DNA from: a virus
Length of the DNA stretch: 24,599 nucleotides
IMG/VR virus record: IMGVR_UViG_3300035703_000401
Location: 1 to 24,599 of that record
Strand: one strand, 5' to 3'
Shown: positions 3,581 through 20,135 of the stretch, piece after piece
Layout: each line of letters starts with the position of its first letter
Position numbering within the stretch: the first letter of the stretch is position 1
Position numbers and translations under genes: made by a program
The notes under the pieces: generated by a model
Seen by the model: the letters and a program-made list of their open reading frames with translations, nothing else
The model's database searches: none
Told to the model about the DNA's origin: nothing

Positions 3581-4220
3581 GATAATTTGAAGATATTTGA
3601 TTTTTATGGATTCTGTTGCTGACTAAAACATCATCGAGATAAATTGGATTTCCAAATTTTAATCTAGTATGATAGTAAAAATCACAGTCCATCATCATCT
3701 TTAAATTAGTATCAAATTTAATTTGCTCAAATACATTCCTACTAAAGGATAAAACAGAAGGAGAACTTATTGTATTTACTCCCAGTAAAATATTATCATT
3801 CCACCTGGGATACATCTCATTGTAAAAAGAGTTCCCATCATCTGCAGTATGATTGCAACCACATAATATCCAAGAGATATCTTTTCTAAACTCATTAATT
3901 ATTTTTTGAAATGCCTCATCATCATAAAAAAAATCGTCTTGAAACATTACTTTAATAATATCACCATGGCATAAAGAAATTGCATTATTAGTATTGTATG
4001 GACCATTCCCTCTATGTTCTAAGCATCTATTATACCTTATTGAGAGATCGTAGATATTTTTTTTACAAAAATCCCGTATATCATTATTTCTACTATGGTC
4101 GGATATAACAACCTCAAAGTTTCTAAAAGTTTGTATACTTATTGTCCTGAGTAAGTCATCTAAAAATTCAACTCCTCTCCCATAGTACTCCCAGGTAGGA
4201 ATTGCTACAGATAATTTCAT
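3528..4220 (-). CDS. Glycosyltransferase family 2 (GT-A fold)
   Basis: Residues near the N-terminus (LSVAIPTWEYYG, then QTFRNFEVVISDHS) are the classical GT2 nucleotide-binding start, and VMFQDDFFYDDEAF supplies the acidic DxD-like metal site. HRNRGNGP-type sequence is represented by LEHRGNGPYNTNNAI. The length (230 aa from this start) matches a single GT2 catalytic domain without membrane helices. An in-frame ATG lies four codons upstream at 4232, but the ATG at 4220 gives a 4-bp ATGA overlap with the GT11 stop codon, the coupling seen elsewhere in this operon, so it is chosen. The donor sugar cannot be predicted. Confidence 0.85.
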   Translation of the reverse strand: MKLSVAIPTWEYYGRGVEFLDDLLRTISIQTFRNFEVVISDHSRNNDIRDFCKKNIYDLSIRYNRCLEHRGNGPYNTNNAISLCHGDIIKVMFQDDFFYDDEAFQKIINEFRKDISWILCGCNHTADDGNSFYNEMYPRWNDNILLGVNTISSPSVLSFSRNVFEQIKFDTNLKMMMDCDFYYHTRLKFGNPIYLDDVLVSNRIHKNQISSNYHGDMDKEVRYCYNKYHA

Positions 4221-5017
4221 ATAATAATCCAATGACTACAATATAAATCCTTTGTTATTTTGTCAGAATTATTAGGACCAAACCATTTGGATGGAGCAAT
4301 AACCTTCCCAACATTAGATAACCAAGCACCCCACCAACTAAAAGTACTATTTGCAATGATAAAATCACTACACTTAGACATCAAATATAAATCATGATAT
4401 GAACTCCCTCCCTCTGATACTAAAAATCTATCATCAGAAAAAAGTTCCTGTTCTTTGCACCATTCTGGGTCATCGGAAAAAATAATTACCTGCCTATTAC
4501 TAGAGAACTTTGATAGTGCATATTCATAAAAATCTAAGCTTAAATTGTGATGATTTTTTGAGTTTATTAAATAATCTCCCCTTCTAATATGAAGAGCAAC
4601 AGGATTATCAAAAAAATTAAGATATTCTTTGCAGTCAGATACTATATGGTCAAGAAATGAAAAATCTTTTCTTATATCATCCGAGACATTTGAAAAATAT
4701 TTTTCAGTTTGAAAATACCCAACCAAAGAAAAGTCTTCTTTAATTCTTGTATTGAACAATTCAGAATCAAATTCAAAATGCTTTTCCGGAAAATAATTTT
4801 GAGTATCTAAGAAACCAACATTATCAGGATTAATCTTAAAACAATCAAACAATTCAATTCTTAGTTTATTTCCCAAATTATCATTAACTATTTGACCATG
4901 ATTGGGAATTATGAAATTAGTTCCAATATTTTTAGATATTCCTTTTGCTGCAGCATATTGAAACATTTGATTTCCAAGTTGTCCCATGGTTCCCAAATGA
5001 TTAAACCCTATAGTCAC
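4217..5017 (-). CDS. GT11 family alpha-1,2-fucosyltransferase-type enzyme
   Basis: A 266-residue protein with the diagnostic GT11 motifs: GQLGNQMFQYAAAKG at the N-terminus (12-26), HIRRGDYL (143-150) and NSTFSWWGAWLS (223-234). The family transfers L-fucose from GDP-L-fucose, usually to galactose in O-antigens or human-type glycans; the HxRRxD motif binds the GDP part. No GDP-fucose synthesis genes are visible here, but a GDP-mannose 3,5-epimerase homologue starts the same operon. GDP-L-galactose, which is 6-hydroxy-GDP-L-fucose, is therefore a plausible donor (inference). It overlaps both neighbours by 4 bp (ATGA). Confidence 0.93.
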   Translation of the reverse strand: MTIGFNHLGTMGQLGNQMFQYAAAKGISKNIGTNFIIPNHGQIVNDNLGNKLRIELFDCFKINPDNVGFLDTQNYFPEKHFEFDSELFNTRIKEDFSLVGYFQTEKYFSNVSDDIRKDFSFLDHIVSDCKEYLNFFDNPVALHIRRGDYLINSKNHHNLSLDFYEYALSKFSSNRQVIIFSDDPEWCKEQELFSDDRFLVSEGGSSYHDLYLMSKCSDFIIANSTFSWWGAWLSNVGKVIAPSKWFGPNNSDKITKDLYCSHWIII

Positions 5018-5607
5018 TTCTTAATTCCCCAAAAATAAAGATCTTTTGAAAACGAATACTTACTCCCCTTTAGTTGTTTAATAAATTCAGTTAAAGGTTC
5101 TTTCACAGTACTATGAAATTCATAAACTTCGAATATATCATCAAAAGATTCATTAAAAGAATTTCTAAAATCATCTTCATCTAGATTTCTGTAATAATCC
5201 CATCCTTTACCTATTGTTAGAGGTGATTTTGATGGAGAAGTCCTGGATGTTCCATGTTCAGGGCGACCAGTAGTAGCACAAGTAAAAAACACTAATCCAC
5301 CACTCTTAGTCATTCTGACCATATTAGCAAAGGTTTCCGCCCAGTATGGATTATGCTCAAAACATTCACCAGAAGTACATACATCGTAAGTTTCATCTGG
5401 AGAATTATACTCATGTCCAGAACAAACAAAATCTACATCTTTGCCTTCACCAACATCAATTCCCGTGTAATCACAGTCATTAAAAAAATCTCTCATAGTC
5501 CCATTAATGTTGAGACTTCCAACTTCCAAAACTTTTTTATTTGAAAAGAATAATAAATTATTCTTTTTTACCATTAAAATAAATTCTCTCTGATAACTAT
5601 GCGACAT
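5014..5607 (-). CDS. SAM-dependent methyltransferase
   Basis: A 197-residue protein with a class I methyltransferase core: KVLEVGS (25-31) as motif I, YTGIDVGEGKDVD as motif II with an acidic ribose-binding residue, YDVCTSGECFEHNPYW as the motif with the conserved 'E.leH' pattern of Methyltransf_11 enzymes, then MVRMTKSGGLVFFTCAT. It is short but covers a full catalytic domain. Lying between the epimerase and the GT11 gene, it probably methylates a sugar or a sugar precursor. It overlaps the epimerase stop by 11 bp and the GT11 start by 4 bp. The substrate is unknown. Confidence 0.8.
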   Translation of the reverse strand: MSHSYQREFILMVKKNNLLFFSNKKVLEVGSLNINGTMRDFFNDCDYTGIDVGEGKDVDFVCSGHEYNSPDETYDVCTSGECFEHNPYWAETFANMVRMTKSGGLVFFTCATTGRPEHGTSRTSPSKSPLTIGKGWDYYRNLDEDDFRNSFNESFDDIFEVYEFHSTVKEPLTEFIKQLKGSKYSFSKDLYFWGIKK

Positions 5608-7330: not shown

Positions 7331-8797
7331 TCAGAACTTAAAGGTTGTCTGAATTACACCACCCCAGTTGGAAGAATTGCCAACCAGACGTTGGTTGTCA
7401 CTTCCATAGATGATGGCAGGAGTAACACTGATGTTATCAGATACTTGATACTTGTAGAAGATCTCAAGCATAGTTGCTTTCTCCAGATTTTCTCCAGTAG
7501 GTGCTTGACCGATAGCAACACCAGCAGAGTTGCCATCAACAAACACATCTTCCCACTGAAGACCAGCAAACCAGGACTGACTGTTAGTAGCAGCACTTTC
7601 AGTACCACTTACAGTGTTCCAACCATAACCTGCAGAGATGGAGGGAACCCAACCAGATTGAGTGGGTTGCCAGTATGCATTCAGAGCATAACCATTAGAG
7701 GTTTGACCAGGAGCAAGAGAACCTGAAGCACCATCAAAACCATTATAGGTACGAACACGGGTGCCCTCAGTACCATAACGATAACCAAATGCAGCACCCC
7801 AGTTATCACCACGATAACCAATTTGTGCCAGAGTATTCAGAGCACCAGAACGATCAAACTCACCAGTAGAACTATCAGCACCATTTTGTGCCACATAGTT
7901 TACACCAGCAACAAGACCTTTCTTGCCATACTGGATACCAAAACCAGAACCAGTTGCCTTGTTATAAACACCAGGAGCACCAGCAACTTGGAAGAAGTCA
8001 AGGATCTTGGAACTATAAGCAGTAGGGAGCCAGGAAATTTCAGTGTTACGAACCAGAGCACCAGCAGTCAGAGTAGTGCTACCATTGAACACAGGGAACT
8101 GATAGTACAGACGATCAATAACTACATTATTGCCATTCTCACCAGTGGTGTTGTCTGCTTTATCCAGTTTGAACAGTGAAGAACTGGATCCAAAAGGATT
8201 GCTGCTGAAGTTAGAAGAACGCAGACGAGTACGAAGCAGGTCCTTACCAGTGAATGAAGTATCCAGGTTCAGACGCAGATCATAGTTAAATGCTGTGTGA
8301 GTGATATCACCATCTTTGCTTTGGTAGTCATCAACACCACCAAGAACAAAGTTTGCTTCACCACGCAGTTTAGTAGTTGTAGAGAACTGTTGTGCTTCAA
8401 GTGTAGTCACTTGTGCTTCCAGTTTGTCAACACGACCACGAAGAACTGCAAGTTCTGCAGCAAACTCATTAGTAAGACGCTTGAGTTCATCAGTAACTTC
8501 AGTCACACGATCAAGGCAAGCATTCAGAAGTGCTGCTGCCTCATAACGAGTCATAGCACGACCACCACCAAAGGTGCCATTGGGATAACCAGCAACACAA
8601 CCATAACGCTCTACTAGTTGTGAGAGTGCTTGATATGCCCAGTCAGTTGGTTGCACATCAGAGAATTGAGTGACACTTGTAACTTGTTCTGAAGAATATT
8701 GGGTTACTCCACCCATATTGAGTTCTGCAGCATTCACAGCAGGAGCAACGATCCCCAAGGCAACAGGTGCAAGCATCAGTTGTTTGAAAAATTTCAT
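7331..8797 (-). CDS. Cyanobacterial-type outer-membrane porin (SLH + OprB-like)
   Basis: A 488-residue protein with a signal peptide (about residues 1-23, ending VNA), an SLH domain (about 44-97, FSDVQPTDWAYQAL to TRYEAAALLN), a short coiled coil (about 100-137) and a long beta-barrel region ending in phenylalanine (TTFKF), the usual last residue of outer-membrane proteins. This is the architecture of cyanobacterial SomA/OprB-type porins: the SLH domain binds peptidoglycan-linked polymer in the periplasm and the barrel lets small solutes through the outer membrane. It looks full length, so it is probably functional and host-derived. An exact late promoter sits 31 bp upstream. No Shine-Dalgarno sequence is visible. 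The role in infection is unknown. Confidence 0.9.
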   Translation of the reverse strand: MKFFKQLMLAPVALGIVAPAVNAAELNMGGVTQYSSEQVTSVTQFSDVQPTDWAYQALSQLVERYGCVAGYPNGTFGGGRAMTRYEAAALLNACLDRVTEVTDELKRLTNEFAAELAVLRGRVDKLEAQVTTLEAQQFSTTTKLRGEANFVLGGVDDYQSKDGDITHTAFNYDLRLNLDTSFTGKDLLRTRLRSSNFSSNPFGSSSSLFKLDKADNTTGENGNNVVIDRLYYQFPVFNGSTTLTAGALVRNTEISWLPTAYSSKILDFFQVAGAPGVYNKATGSGFGIQYGKKGLVAGVNYVAQNGADSSTGEFDRSGALNTLAQIGYRGDNWGAAFGYRYGTEGTRVRTYNGFDGASGSLAPGQTSNGYALNAYWQPTQSGWVPSISAGYGWNTVSGTESAATNSQSWFAGLQWEDVFVDGNSAGVAIGQAPTGENLEKATMLEIFYKYQVSDNISVTPAIIYGSDNQRLVGNSSNWGGVIQTTFKF

Positions 8798-8979: not shown

Positions 8980-9009
8980 ATTATACCCTAGTATAGCATA
9001 CATTGGCAA
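8980..9009 (-). promoter_or_regulatory. Second, weaker promoter upstream of tRNA-Gly
   Basis: TTGCCA (9009-9004), 18-bp spacer, TATAAT (8985-8980) on the minus strand, overlapping the 3' end of the RlpA-like gene. CTAGGG sits directly upstream of the -10 box. It would be in tandem with the stronger promoter. Confidence 0.45.
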
Positions 9010-9343
9010 CCCCTTGTCCAGGAGATGCGATTTTACTAAATGCACCATAGGACAAATCAAGAGATCTACCAGCAACAAAAGGTCCTCTGTCATTCACTTT
9101 TACAATTACAGAACGACCATTTGATTGATTGGTAACTTTTAATTTAGTGCCGAAGGGAAGAAATTTATGGGCAGTTGACAACCCATATGCGTTATATCTT
9201 TCTCCATTGGCAGTAGTTTGTCCGTGATATCCATCACCTACTCCATAATGTGATGCAAGGGAACATCCGCTTGCTGCCTTTGCTGTGATGGGTGCCAGTC
9301 CAACAAGACCAAAGGCAAGTATTGAAATTGTTTTAAAAAGCAT
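8981..9343 (-). CDS. rlpA: RlpA-like double-psi beta-barrel protein, secreted
   Basis: From the ATG at 9343 the product is 120 aa with a signal peptide (MLFKTISILAFGLVGLAP, cleavage near AKA-AS at 23). It has a single RlpA/DPBB domain: SHYGVGDGYHGQTTANGERYN-type N-terminus (31-51), THKFLPFG-like AHKFLPFGTKLKV (58-70), and VNDRGPF (83-89) with the catalytic-type Asp85, followed by RSLDLS (93-98). Bacterial RlpA cleaves glycan strands lacking stem peptides. Cys27 and Cys116 could form a disulfide. It may remodel host peptidoglycan during infection or lysis. There is no lipobox, so it should be soluble in the periplasm. An in-frame GTG upstream at 9391 was rejected because the signal peptide would then not be N-terminal. 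Confidence 0.85.
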   Translation of the reverse strand: MLFKTISILAFGLVGLAPITAKAASGCSLASHYGVGDGYHGQTTANGERYNAYGLSTAHKFLPFGTKLKVTNQSNGRSVIVKVNDRGPFVAGRSLDLSYGAFSKIASPGQGVANVCYTRV

Positions 9344-9365
9344 TAAATTTAATTGAATTCTACAT

Positions 9366-9414
9366 CCCAATAGAAGGGGGGTACACCACACCTCTCGGTG
9401 GGCACCTTCCTGGG
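9366..9414 (-). ncRNA. GC-rich foldable leader upstream of rlpA-like gene
   Basis: A GC-rich island in AT-rich intergenic DNA. On the minus strand CCCA (9414-9411) pairs with TGGG (9369-9366), GGAAGG (9410-9405) with CCTTCT (977-72 within 9300s), and CACC (9400-9397) with GGTG (9392-9389) around a GAGA tetraloop. It ends 22 bp before the RlpA-like ATG, which lacks a Shine-Dalgarno sequence. It may be a structured 5' leader; it matches no riboswitch I recognise. Confidence 0.4.
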
Positions 9415-10159: not shown

Positions 10160-11557
10160 TTACTTTGTTGCCTGATAAGAACGTACCTTGGATTCACCAG
10201 TTTTCTTATCTGGTGCTACCATATGAGTTTTGATTTTCTTTGATACTGGTGCGTTCTGCTTTTCCTTCTCAAATGCCTTATGTACTTTGGCAGCATCATC
10301 ATACATATGAACTTTGCTAGCACCACTCTTCTTCGCAACAGCATTAGCAACCTTCACTTTTTTCTCACCAACATCACCACCTTTCATTCCACCAGTGTAG
10401 TGAATCTTTGATTTATCTACATCGACACCATGCTTCTTGAGGTGTCCCTGGAATTCACTTGGTTTATCAAACTTGGAACGAGCAGTGATGATGTGAACGT
10501 TCTGTCCTCTTGCCTGCTTTCTCTTAACATCTTTAATCACTTTCTTATTTGGACTTGAAGTTTCCTTGAACTTCTTGGCACTCTGGAACTCACCGAAGTC
10601 ATAAGAATGACCTTTCTCCAACTTATGAGTGTTGAACTCCTGGTTACTTAAACTCTTAACTCTCTTACCAGATGCGTCCTTAACGTGAACCTTGACGTTT
10701 GGTTTGCCCTTTTTACCGTGAGAGAACAAGGTCTCATCAACATCATATGCATGAACTGTTTTCTTGGGTCTAGTTCCTCTTGCCTTTTCTAAAAGATATT
10801 CTTCATCTACTTTCGTTTTATTATATTGCTTCCAAGCAGTCGCATAAGCAATTGCTCTTTCTCTATCGGTCAGTCCATCTTTGGAGTAACCTTTCTTGAT
10901 ATGCTTCACCATTCTTTCAAATTTTGCCCCAGGAGGTGCCTTCTCTACCAATTCGACCTCTTCCTTGGGAACACAATTTGGAACAGTCCTACCACCTTTC
11001 TTCTTTGTCCCTATTGGTTCATATCCCTTCCAACAAGGATTTGTATTCCTTAAAGTTTTTTCTTTCTTTGCTTCATCCAAAATCATTCTCATTCTATCTT
11101 TAGATGCTTCAAATTCTTCCTTATTATGCATTGTTTCCCAATATGAATCCCAATTCTTCTTATCTTTTTTTGCCTGCTCTCTTGATGATGGAGTAAATGA
11201 AGATGCCTTATTTCTAGTACCTTGTCCCAATGGCACTCTCTTTTTGGGACCAGATGCTGCTGCCCTTTTTGCCATTTTCTGAATTTCTGGATCTGAACCA
11301 GTTCTCTTTACACTGCCAATTGTTTTAGTTACAGGATCCCAATGTGCTTCACCAAGTTCAACTTCCTCACTGTTTACTTTAGGCAGTTTCACTGCTGCTG
11401 CCTTTTTCTTTTGGAGTTCTACTGCCTTTGGTCCTAACTGTCTTGCTGCACTTGGAGTGAGTGCTCCTGCACCAGAAGATTTCCTAACTTCAAAACTAGG
11501 AGACTTAGCTTCGTAAACCTTACTATATGCTTCTCTAATATTATTAAGACCAGACAT
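10160..11557 (-). CDS. Modular virion-type protein with C-terminal HAD phosphatase
   Basis: A 465-residue, lysine-rich protein. The C-terminal ~200 residues form a HAD domain: VHAYDVDETLF with the Asp272-x-Asp274 nucleophile pair, IITARS (356-361), a lysine near 399, and HMYDDAAKVH with Asp420-Asp421. This is closest in outline to polynucleotide-phosphatase-type HADs such as the T4 Pnkp phosphatase domain. The N-terminal part is a string of short modules common in cyanophage virion proteins, including NPCWKGYEPIGTKKKGG and MVKHIKKGYSKDGLTDRE, with acidic EEVEL linkers. The first 20 residues contain IREA and VYEA, which fit the (I/L/V)xE-A cleavage rule of T4 prohead protease. An exact late promoter precedes it. 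A capsid-packaged phosphatase is my inference. Confidence 0.75.
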   Translation of the reverse strand: MSGLNNIREAYSKVYEAKSPSFEVRKSSGAGALTPSAARQLGPKAVELQKKKAAAVKLPKVNSEEVELGEAHWDPVTKTIGSVKRTGSDPEIQKMAKRAAASGPKKRVPLGQGTRNKASSFTPSSREQAKKDKKNWDSYWETMHNKEEFEASKDRMRMILDEAKKEKTLRNTNPCWKGYEPIGTKKKGGRTVPNCVPKEEVELVEKAPPGAKFERMVKHIKKGYSKDGLTDRERAIAYATAWKQYNKTKVDEEYLLEKARGTRPKKTVHAYDVDETLFSHGKKGKPNVKVHVKDASGKRVKSLSNQEFNTHKLEKGHSYDFGEFQSAKKFKETSSPNKKVIKDVKRKQARGQNVHIITARSKFDKPSEFQGHLKKHGVDVDKSKIHYTGGMKGGDVGEKKVKVANAVAKKSGASKVHMYDDAAKVHKAFEKEKQNAPVSKKIKTHMVAPDKKTGESKVRSYQATK

Positions 11558-16497: not shown

Positions 16498-16707
16498 TTA
16501 CTTGGACCGTCTTTGTACCTTTGCTAAATTTTTAAAAAAAGGATTCCAAGTTCTATGCTTCTTTTTACGTAAATCAACTGGTGGATTTCCAGGATCTGCC
16601 TCAGGAGTTCCTGCAATCTTACCAGTACCAAGATTCATTGTTGGAGCATCTTCACGTAAATTTGTTCTAATAATATTTATTATTTCGTTTAATTTGTCCG
16701 ATTTCAT
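16498..16707 (-). CDS. Small basic hypothetical protein (69 aa)
   Basis: The N-terminus is a helix (MKSDKLNEIINIIRTNLRED), followed by a glycine/proline-rich linker (MNLGTGKIAGTPEADPGNPP) and a basic tail (DLRKKKHRTWNPFFKNLAKVQRRSK). This layout, including the glycine-rich MNLGTG segment, is familiar from small proteins of cyanophages, but I cannot name a function. The basic tail could bind DNA. It follows the 123-aa gene with a 1-bp gap and precedes the coiled-coil gene by 0 bp, so the three are probably cotranscribed from the late promoter upstream of the Ig-like gene. Confidence 0.7.
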   Translation of the reverse strand: MKSDKLNEIINIIRTNLREDAPTMNLGTGKIAGTPEADPGNPPVDLRKKKHRTWNPFFKNLAKVQRRSK

Positions 16708-17086: not shown

Positions 17087-17923
17087 TCAGCTAACGGTCA
17101 TTGTTGCAATTCCAGAAGTCGAGGACACATCTCCAGAGGTAAGAACGACACGATACTTATAATTATTCTTGCTTGCATCAGTATTCGCAATGCTTACACT
17201 AGTTGAGGTTTGACCCGCAAGGTTAGCAAATGTTCCGGTATTAGGATCCTGTTGCCACTGATAAGAAAGTGGTGCATAAGTAGGAGTAATTGATGCACTT
17301 ACACTAAACGTTGCAGTTGCTGTAGTTCCAACACCTACTGATTGTGGTTGAGTGAGAATTGAAATAACGGCATCAACATATACAGAATCGTCAGCAGCAT
17401 CACCAGCAGCAATATATGTTGGAAGAGTTCCACCAGTGATTTCCGACATAGCAACAAGAGTTTCTGATTTAACTCTCAAGTTACCGTGCATATCGACATA
17501 AGTATGAACGCCAACCCATCCTGCGTGTGCTACAGCATATTTAGTTGTTGTTGCTGCTCCTGCCTCATTTACATCAACACCATACACAACATTGGTAGAA
17601 GATGAATTTCCTGCCCCAATAATTGTTGCATAATTTATGTCCTCAAGGGTATAGATTGGTCTTTCAGTAATCGAATATCCAATTCCAGAAATTGCTGCTC
17701 CAGACAAGTATTGAGTAGTAGCAATTGAAATCGAAGTATCCGATGTAATTGCAGAAATTACTGCAGAACCAAAAGTTCCACCAGCTCCAATTACAATTAC
17801 ATCGCCAGTGGAAATTCCAGCAGCAGTGAATGAAGTTCCGGTTCCGGTGATAGTTTTATTTCCATAATTAACTGCGATTGTTCCTACAGAATAAAGACTA
17901 TCTGATTTTCCCCAAAGAGCCAT
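17087..17923 (-). CDS. Structural protein with C-terminal Ig-like domain
   Basis: A 278-residue protein rich in Gly, Ser, Thr and Ala. The N-terminus (MALWGKSDSLYSVGTIAVNY) and the repeated short beta-strand segments resemble cyanophage virion structural proteins. The last ~90 residues (ILTQPQSVGVGTTATATFSV, SYQWQQDPNTG, YKYRVVLTSGD) form a typical phage Ig-like domain with the conserved tryptophan and tyrosine. Ig-like domains decorate capsids and tails (for example T4 Hoc) and can bind surface carbohydrate. An exact late promoter is 34 bp upstream. It is full length by appearance; its exact place in the virion is unknown. Confidence 0.8.
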   Translation of the reverse strand: MALWGKSDSLYSVGTIAVNYGNKTITGTGTSFTAAGISTGDVIVIGAGGTFGSAVISAITSDTSISIATTQYLSGAAISGIGYSITERPIYTLEDINYATIIGAGNSSSTNVVYGVDVNEAGAATTTKYAVAHAGWVGVHTYVDMHGNLRVKSETLVAMSEITGGTLPTYIAAGDAADDSVYVDAVISILTQPQSVGVGTTATATFSVSASITPTYAPLSYQWQQDPNTGTFANLAGQTSTSVSIANTDASKNNYKYRVVLTSGDVSSTSGIATMTVS

Positions 17924-19010: not shown

Positions 19011-20135
19011 TCAGTTAACTTCACAAACATCCTTTATCCAAGATTTAAACATTATACCATCATCAGTTACACAAATTAGATGGTTTGTCCCAGATCTAAT
19101 AATATTACCACGAAGTCCTGTATTACAATTCTCCACTAAAGACCCAACAGTAAATATTTTTTTAGTGACATAATTTTCACGAAGACCTCTCCAATCCAAA
19201 TCTGGAGAAATTTCCCAAATAGAATAACCTTCTTTAATATTCATAGCATCTCTCAAATCCATAAAGAGTTGCTTAATTATTGATTCATCAACATTTGAAG
19301 GCATTGTTTTTTTAAAGGTCTGATAATCCCCTTCTGCAGCAGAACTTCTAGCAACAGAAGATGTCCCAGTTTCGGAATCAGAGTCTTTTGGTCCCGCAGA
19401 AACTACGTTAATTGATTGGAACTGATATAACTGTCCGTTTGCCTTTGCAGTCAAACTATCAAGTTCAGCAACTCTTTCCTCTCCACAGACTACATTGGCA
19501 GAAGTATATCCTTCTTGATTTAAGAAGGTCAGTGCATCAAATACAGTGTTAAACTCATCACTGTCAATAATCCGATCAGCATAATCAGGAAACATTTCCT
19601 TCATATATTGGATCTTTAATTCAGGATCCAATGGATTTCTTTTTTTATCCTGCGTTCTACTTGGGAATATATAAAAGTTTCCTCCAGCAGATACTTGAGA
19701 CATTGCTTTAAACAATGCTTCGTGTCCTTTGGTTGGAGGATTGAACTTACCGAAGGCAACGGTAACTATATCATCACGAACTTGCTGTTGAGATTGACCG
19801 TATCCAGATGCTGAAGAAGATGCTGCTGAAGCAGCAGAAGATCTCTGAGATGCTGCTTGAGGGGTTTTGCCAAGTCTTACTTTTCCCCCTTTATAAGAAG
19901 AAGGTTTCTTACCAGTAATGGTTGCTGGTTCTTGCCTTTCAGTCTCATCCCTATCTTTCTTCTGAGATGCCTTTCCACTAAAGACTTTAAGTTGTCCCTT
20001 TATAGTTTTTGCTACTAACTTTCCCTTTGAATCATACCAGTCTCCGTGACCGTTTCCCACAAGTCCCATCCTTTTCGCTTGAGCGGATGCTTGTGTTTCT
20101 ACTGCTTCTTTGATAAAGGTTAAGAAAGTTTTCAT
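19011..20135 (-). CDS. Nucleotidyltransferase with internal-protein-like N-terminus
   Basis: A 374-residue protein with several parts. Residues 1-11 (MKTFLTFIKEA) closely resemble the capsid-targeting sequence of T4 internal proteins (MKTYQEFIAEA), cut by prohead protease after Glu. Residues 17-52 form a small GLVGNGHGDWYDSKGKLVAK module, followed by a Ser/Ala-rich linker. Residues 121-280 are a cytidylyltransferase/NMNAT-like domain: VTVAFGKFNPPTKGHEAL (TxGH, 135-138), FPSRTQDKKRNPL, and GTSSVARSSAAEGD (257-270) in place of the family's ISSTxVR motif. Residues 325-374 may be an SH3-like barrel. The substrate is unknown. It is translationally coupled (4-bp overlap) to the 74-aa gene. Confidence 0.8.
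   Translation of the reverse strand: MKTFLTFIKEAVETQASAQAKRMGLVGNGHGDWYDSKGKLVAKTIKGQLKVFSGKASQKKDRDETERQEPATITGKKPSSYKGGKVRLGKTPQAASQRSSAASAASSSASGYGQSQQQVRDDIVTVAFGKFNPPTKGHEALFKAMSQVSAGGNFYIFPSRTQDKKRNPLDPELKIQYMKEMFPDYADRIIDSDEFNTVFDALTFLNQEGYTSANVVCGEERVAELDSLTAKANGQLYQFQSINVVSAGPKDSDSETGTSSVARSSAAEGDYQTFKKTMPSNVDESIIKQLFMDLRDAMNIKEGYSIWEISPDLDWRGLRENYVTKKIFTVGSLVENCNTGLRGNIIRSGTNHLICVTDDGIMFKSWIKDVCEVN

Follow-up and report, generated by a model that had tools for sequence, protein, structure and literature searches.

A candidate capsid-targeting leader on a modular nucleotidyltransferase of T4-like cyanophages

The window analysed here is a viral record of 24,599 bases whose genes lie in the order of a T4-like cyanophage, the same as in S-SCSM1: UvsX, DnaB-like helicase, MazG, nucleotidyltransferase, small genes, primase, NrdA and NrdB. 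UvsX and MazG were assigned by family models, whilst the helicase, primase, NrdA and NrdB are what we take these sequences to be from reading them. The nucleotidyltransferase gene occupies positions 19011..20135 on the minus strand, starts with ATG and encodes 374 amino acids beginning MKTFLTFIKEAVETQASAQAKRMGLVGNGHGDWYD (MKTFLTFIKEA...). The protein belongs to phrog_395, ‘cytidyltransferase’ (E 2e-74), and matches of this type were found in 533 phage records, chiefly of Synechococcus and Prochlorococcus phages. A neighbouring gene (17087..17923, minus strand) encodes a homologue of S-SCSM1_95, an annotated virion protein (46% identity over 177 aa), and matches phrog_613 ‘head protein’. A possible late promoter, GATAAATA, about 70 bases upstream of the ATG was given no weight, as TAAATA occurs 36 times in the window and 36.0 times in shuffled sequence. 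Two further minus-strand genes are presumably host-derived, at 7331-8797 one that reads like a porin of the cyanobacterial outer membrane bearing an SLH-type domain, and at 8981-9391 one that reads like an RlpA-type protein.

The 374-aa protein is modular. The leader, residues 1-10 (MKTFLTFIKE; 20106..20135, minus strand), is followed by a module of about 44 residues that we term GHG (GHGDWYD...VAKT..G.L; residues 13-56, 19968..20099), a variable linker (residues 57-118, 19782..19967), a nucleotidyltransferase domain with the motif GKFNPPTKGH (residues 121-303, 19227..19775) and a C-terminal module of about 50 residues (324-373, 19017..19166). In the AlphaFold model, confidence is high for residues 121-303, where pLDDT is mostly about 90, and low for 54-87 and 89-118, with linker values below 50. 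We aligned 40 homologues, comprising the window protein, 36 from viral contigs, which were fetched with patterns that excluded the leader, and three from isolates. Residues M1, K2, F4, F7 and E10 are invariant in 40/40, position 8 is Leu or Ile in 39 and Phe once, and position 11 is Ala in all 34 homologues with an aligned residue, the other six having a gap. Mean entropy is 0.97 bits across residues 2-11, 1.06 in the GHG module (16-50), 2.54 in the linker (51-115), 1.34 in the enzyme domain and 0.88 in the C-terminal module; the ten residues at the tip, with a freely varying linker between them and the enzyme, are thus as tightly conserved as the catalytic domain.

The sequence-only reading had proposed that this N-terminus is a capsid-targeting sequence (CTS) like that of the T4 internal proteins, which it gave as MKTYQEFIAEA. 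The open-reading frame lies exactly at 19011-20135 on the minus strand with the start that was claimed, and the T4 sequence given is correct for ipII and ipIII. In T4, truncation and amber-suppressor work on IPIII showed that ten residues suffice for targeting, with residues 4 and 7 mainly responsible for targeting and residues 8 and 10 for processing (PMC9026906). By alignment, the positions conserved here are those that matter in T4: both aromatics, F4 and F7, are present in the window protein and in 40/40 homologues, and the window protein has I8, E10 and A11 in the form of the gp23 cleavage sites described below. Free variation of the first residues, which the same reading had named as telling against it, is absent in cyanophage homologues, where the leader positions are conserved. 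Outside the cyanophages (HTVC008M, Melnitz-1, K64-1 and PA5oct) the leader of homologues is absent or degenerate, which implies that packaging is not needed for the basic function of the enzyme.

Eleven residues are short and most of the homologues are related by descent, so that the match might be a coincidental resemblance to a lineage-specific N-terminus unrelated to T4 targeting. We regard this as extremely improbable, since chance resemblance was ruled out by three controls. With a strict leader regular expression, each phage genome gave 0-3 open-reading frames, where shuffled N-termini would give 0.000-0.013, and none of more than 8,000 internal Met positions matched. A degenerate DNA pattern for MKTFxxFIxEA was found in at least 119 stretches of viral contigs, where chance would give about 0.2-1.2 if the collection holds about 45 Gb, and a permuted control pattern matched once. 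Across 257 Gb of bacterial genomes there were five matches to the real pattern, about as many as chance would give (1.4-7), and all but one of them open just 11-49 codons. The leader also stands on unrelated proteins of 44 clusters (see below), and a profile of it recovers the T4 internal proteins blindly. The position weights of this profile came from 145 distinct viral-contig leaders, with T4 excluded; the regular expression used for training fixes K/R2, F/Y4, F/W/Y7 and E10, so that the profile is strongest there by construction, and its independent tests are the rankings in T4 and S-CREM2. Among 438 T4 open-reading frames, ipIII, ipII and ipI ranked first, second and third, an exact top three with a chance probability of 7e-8. 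In the window, the 374-aa protein scored 27.1 and the next-best open-reading frame -5.1.

The evidence from virions concerns orthologues in four isolates, the window phage itself being a 24.6 kb metagenomic record without head genes. Published mass spectrometry places the direct orthologue in S-SCSM1 (ORF91, leader MKSFLQFLKEA) and the homologue in S-CREM2 (ORF154, leader MKNFSSFLTEA; 3 unique peptides) in virions. S-SZBM1_140, whose leader MRFRQFIIEA is shorter by one residue, was detected with 2 peptides and is the only enzyme named among the 30 virion proteins of that phage. In S-SM1, the ‘putative citidylyltransferase’ T4-GC190, a cyanophage core gene, was detected in virions (PMC3037559); the alignment of the S-SM1 protein with that of Syn9, which bears the leader, begins at residue 1, and the P-SSM2 homologue carries the record label T4-GC 190. 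An NMNAT, possibly a homologue, is also reported from virions of S-CBWM1, and PMC3037559 states that the homologue in the S-PM2 genome was not detected in virions in 2008. Virion presence of the enzyme family has therefore been published already, without a targeting signal or proof of cargo status (PMC9602691, PMC10665884, PMC9146016, PMC3037559). Together with the conserved leader positions important in T4, the orthologues in virions of four isolates give good support to the claim of capsid packaging made from the sequence, and we consider it very probable that the leader is what packages the protein.

The authors of the proteomes warned that proteins expressed at high levels may persist as carry-over after CsCl purification. 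The protein could accordingly be an ordinary cytoplasmic enzyme, abundant during infection, with an N-terminus that serves, for example, folding or partner binding; the low peptide counts in S-CREM2 and S-SZBM1 and the leaderless homologues in other phages fit such a reading. We think it distinctly unlikely, as detection recurs in four independent isolates, the abundant replication enzymes NrdA, NrdB, primase and recombinase are absent from the S-CREM2 table, the leader is common to unrelated S-CREM2 virion proteins and the T4 internal proteins, and the S-CREM2 and S-SZBM1 enzymes, which lack the GHG module, still keep the leader. For the leaderless homologue in PA5oct there is no mass-spectrometry note, though its neighbours have one, a pattern that is no more than suggestive.

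The leader is a good, though not perfect, predictor of virion presence. The five top leader scores among the 727 open-reading frames of S-CREM2 all belong to proteins in the set of 52 virion proteins (hypergeometric p 6e-4 against all CDS, 5e-5 against non-structural CDS): the nucleotidyltransferase, an APH/ChoK-like kinase, a SAM lyase, ORF13 and ORF136, with the fifth scoring 2.3 and the next open-reading frame -2.4. One of two profile-scored leader open-reading frames was detected in virions of S-SCSM1 and none of two in S-SZBM1; pooled, detection was 6/9 for leader open-reading frames vs. 127/719 (p 0.0014). The three leader proteins absent from the virion data (S-SCSM1_30, S-SZBM1_191 and S-SZBM1_192) are all small, at 105-165 aa. 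A leader-like LRFASFMAEA lies 16 residues into S-CREM2 ORF12, a virion nuclease with a Cas9-like annotation, with no usual start codon there. The GHG module recurs in this nuclease and twice in the virion kinase ORF14 of the same phage; as the packaging signal it was rejected, since the virion-detected S-CREM2 ORF154 and S-SZBM1_140 do without it.

T4 gp23 is cut at FLTE|A. The corresponding contexts, with cyanophage positions read off by analogy with T4, are LLTE|A in S-CREM2, FLAE|A in S-SCSM1, FLSE|A in P-SSM2 and ILTE|T in Syn9, and in the viral contig of L004, a 75% identical relative, gp23 reads GFLAE|A and the leader MKKFLDFITE|A. On this comparison, E10|A11 of the window protein (between 20106 and 20105, minus strand) matches the form of the gp23 cleavage site in such phages. 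A gp21-type protease was found in 7/7 related viral contigs (E 3e-81 or better) and gp23 in 8/10; the window fragment stops short of the gp21 and gp23 genes. Trimming after Glu10 is therefore predicted, and we judge it likely.

Searches with gp23 also matched, unprompted, small open-reading frames adjoining the primase gene (E 1e-4 to 1e-5, gp23 residues 60-95), which carry a peptide copying the N-terminal arm of mature gp23, for instance GATGFTGAAAPEGPVAGYDPLM in S-CREM2 ORF160 vs. GADGFTGAAAPGGPNAGFDPVM in gp23. The window copy (phrog_3286; 16498-16707, minus strand) is diverged; others lie in contigs L049 (13174-13389), L059 (11875-12078) and L067 (13748-13957), and in T4 as gp61.1 (AF158101, 18966-19130), with a CTS-like N-terminus, MKTFKEFIKED. 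S-SCSM1_97 and S-CREM2 ORF160, both of this type, are virion proteins, and the peptide reads as a mimic of the capsid arm within the virion. A 465-aa protein of the window (10160-11557, minus strand), the C-terminal half of which we take to be HAD-like from reading its sequence, has a stretch of about 40 residues in common with the virion proteins S-CREM2 ORF160 and SSZBM1_139; its N-terminus, MSGLNNIREAYSKVYEA, is unlike the leader.

The enzyme domain had been read as NMNAT/cytidylyltransferase-like; its predicted fold is that of an adenylyltransferase. Foldseek and VIA-align gave Z 13-14 to CoaD and to NMNAT/NadD/NadM structures about equally, phosphopantetheine adenylyltransferases and NMN/NaMN adenylyltransferases lying within 1 Z unit of each other, so that the two are not separated. 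The Rossmann fold of adenylyltransferases with its (H/T)xGH motif is present, and N132, P133, P134 and H138 of the TxGH motif, together with R160, are invariant in the 40 homologues. With PF01467 (CTP_transf_like) the window protein scored 13.7 bits, below the gathering cut-off of 21, and the S-CREM2 homologue barely passes with 22.3 bits. An NCBIfam search with the 374-aa protein gave no match, no family model reached its cut-off for an NMN/NaMN adenylyltransferase identity of the window protein, and the best nucleotidyltransferase match in a PDB sequence profile search had E 0.18. On its predicted structure the enzyme is an adenylyltransferase-type nucleotidyltransferase (CoaD/NadD/NadM-like); ‘cytidylyltransferase’ has no specific support, ‘NMNAT’ is unproven beyond the fold class, and NMN or NaMN as the substrate is a tentative suggestion, somewhat less probable than its alternatives.

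Other phage proteins with the same N-terminus, a search for which had been proposed, are numerous. Among the viral-contig matches listed there were 225 leader open-reading frames, 114 of them outside the main enzyme cluster and falling into 44 clusters; counts drawn from such matches carry no frequency meaning. Pfam domains behind the leader include GNAT, adenylate kinase, SAM lyase, AAA (zeta-like) kinase, glucosaminidase, DPBB, DUF5661 and DUF6267. A group of 12 leader proteins has an HGT...VY motif and weak matches, below the cut-offs, to PARP and ART-PolyVal; their alignment (A3: L086, L093, L109, L130, L137, L142, L157, L163, L184, L186, L196) shows an invariant H21 and a V-Y motif, and this family is possibly one of packaged ADP-ribosyltransferases, parallel to T4 Alt. 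SAM lyases with the leader occur in S-CREM2 (ORF6, 3837-5081), where the enzyme is a virion protein, and in contig L146 (7160-7690); a packaged SAM lyase could disarm restriction ahead of phage gene expression. The C-terminal module of the window protein is found alone behind a leader in a small protein, L110, and both small modules are found with no enzyme in another, L191, which, with the varied cargo, implies that leader and modules recombine.

These small proteins, the place of the gene in the cyanophage core and the head-assembly defect of T4 IPIII mutants (PMC9026906) would also fit a leader that targets the prohead for a structural role, as part of the core or scaffold like IPIII, with enzyme activity secondary or lost. 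We hold this to be unlikely, since the invariance of the catalytic-type residues N132, P133, P134, H138 and R160 in the 40 homologues argues for an activity that has probably been kept, and other leader proteins bear unrelated catalytic domains.

We conclude with good confidence that the product of the open-reading frame is a modular protein, carried in the virion of a T4-like cyanophage, and that its leader works like the T4 internal-protein CTS. By analogy, the mechanism would be that of T4: through F4 and F7 of its leader the protein would dock on the core of the prohead while the shell is still open, a gp21-type prohead protease would cut after Glu10, at a site of the gp23 form, and the enzyme would be retained in the head and ejected into the cell with the DNA. 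Injection into the host is, on the same analogy, somewhat likelier to occur than not to. Once inside, the enzyme might make or restore an adenylylated cofactor of the NAD or CoA type at a time when no new phage proteins have yet been made; such an early supply, possibly set against NAD-depleting defences, is a guess and the weakest step of the scheme. Of this scheme, only the leader, its first condition, and the virion presence of orthologues, its outcome, have support here; core docking, cleavage, injection, substrate and purpose are inferred.

Beyond this enzyme, we lean towards MKxFxxF[IL]xE|A serving T4-like marine phages in general as a portable address tag, placed ahead of cargo domains that number in the dozens and are unrelated to one another, amongst them the nucleotidyltransferase, SAM lyase, protein kinase, GNAT, adenylate kinase, ADP-ribosyltransferase-like, glucosaminidase, DUF5661 and DUF6267. 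If so, the set of packaged and injected enzymes could be read from sequence, and cargo would be swapped by recombination behind a constant leader. Earlier groups could not separate cargo from contamination, and the leader offers a specific, testable reason for virion presence. It takes T4 capsid targeting beyond three small proteins of a coliphage, to enzymes of viruses that abound in the ocean. If it predicts cargo, the injected repertoire (SAM lyase, ADP-ribosyltransferase-like proteins, kinases and nucleotide enzymes) could be listed from metagenomes and the enzymes tested for counter-defence and host takeover. In the literature searched, which covers neither most subscription journals nor any preprints, we found no report of a targeting leader in cyanophages, and ‘capsid targeting’ and ‘cyanophage’ co-occur solely in a T4 review; we do not claim priority.

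The closest known systems are IPI, IPII and IPIII of T4, with which the cyanophage protein shares the CTS form MK-x-[FY]-x-x-F-[IL]-x-E|A with key positions 4, 7, 8 and 10, the presence of the cargo in virions, and phages with gp21/gp23-type head genes. The T4 cargo is a small basic protein, whereas that of the cyanophage is a large modular enzyme with an additional GHG module and linker after the leader, in a phage that infects a marine cyanobacterium; cleavage and ejection have been demonstrated for T4 and are expected here by extension. T4 Alt, a virion ADP-ribosyltransferase, is likewise an enzyme that a T4-like phage carries in its head and that is believed to have an early action, but the 374-aa protein is an unrelated enzyme with a different N-terminus, and a closer functional parallel to Alt would be the 12-member ADP-ribosyltransferase-like group, for which Pfam matches are weak. 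The virion NMNAT/cytidylyltransferase proteins of S-SCSM1, S-CREM2, S-SZBM1 and S-SM1 belong to the same family as ours (phrog_395/T4-GC190). NadM of the phage NadM/NadV salvage pathway has the same adenylyltransferase fold, and packaging of NAD/ADP-ribose enzymes in myoviruses has been proposed from gene context (PMC9503650); NadM, however, is fused to Nudix and travels with NadV, whereas the 374-aa protein is without Nudix and we noticed no NadV gene in the window. Bacterial CoaD and NadD and archaeal NMNAT share the fold (Z 13-14) and the TxGH motif with the cyanophage enzyme, at only 9-18% identity.
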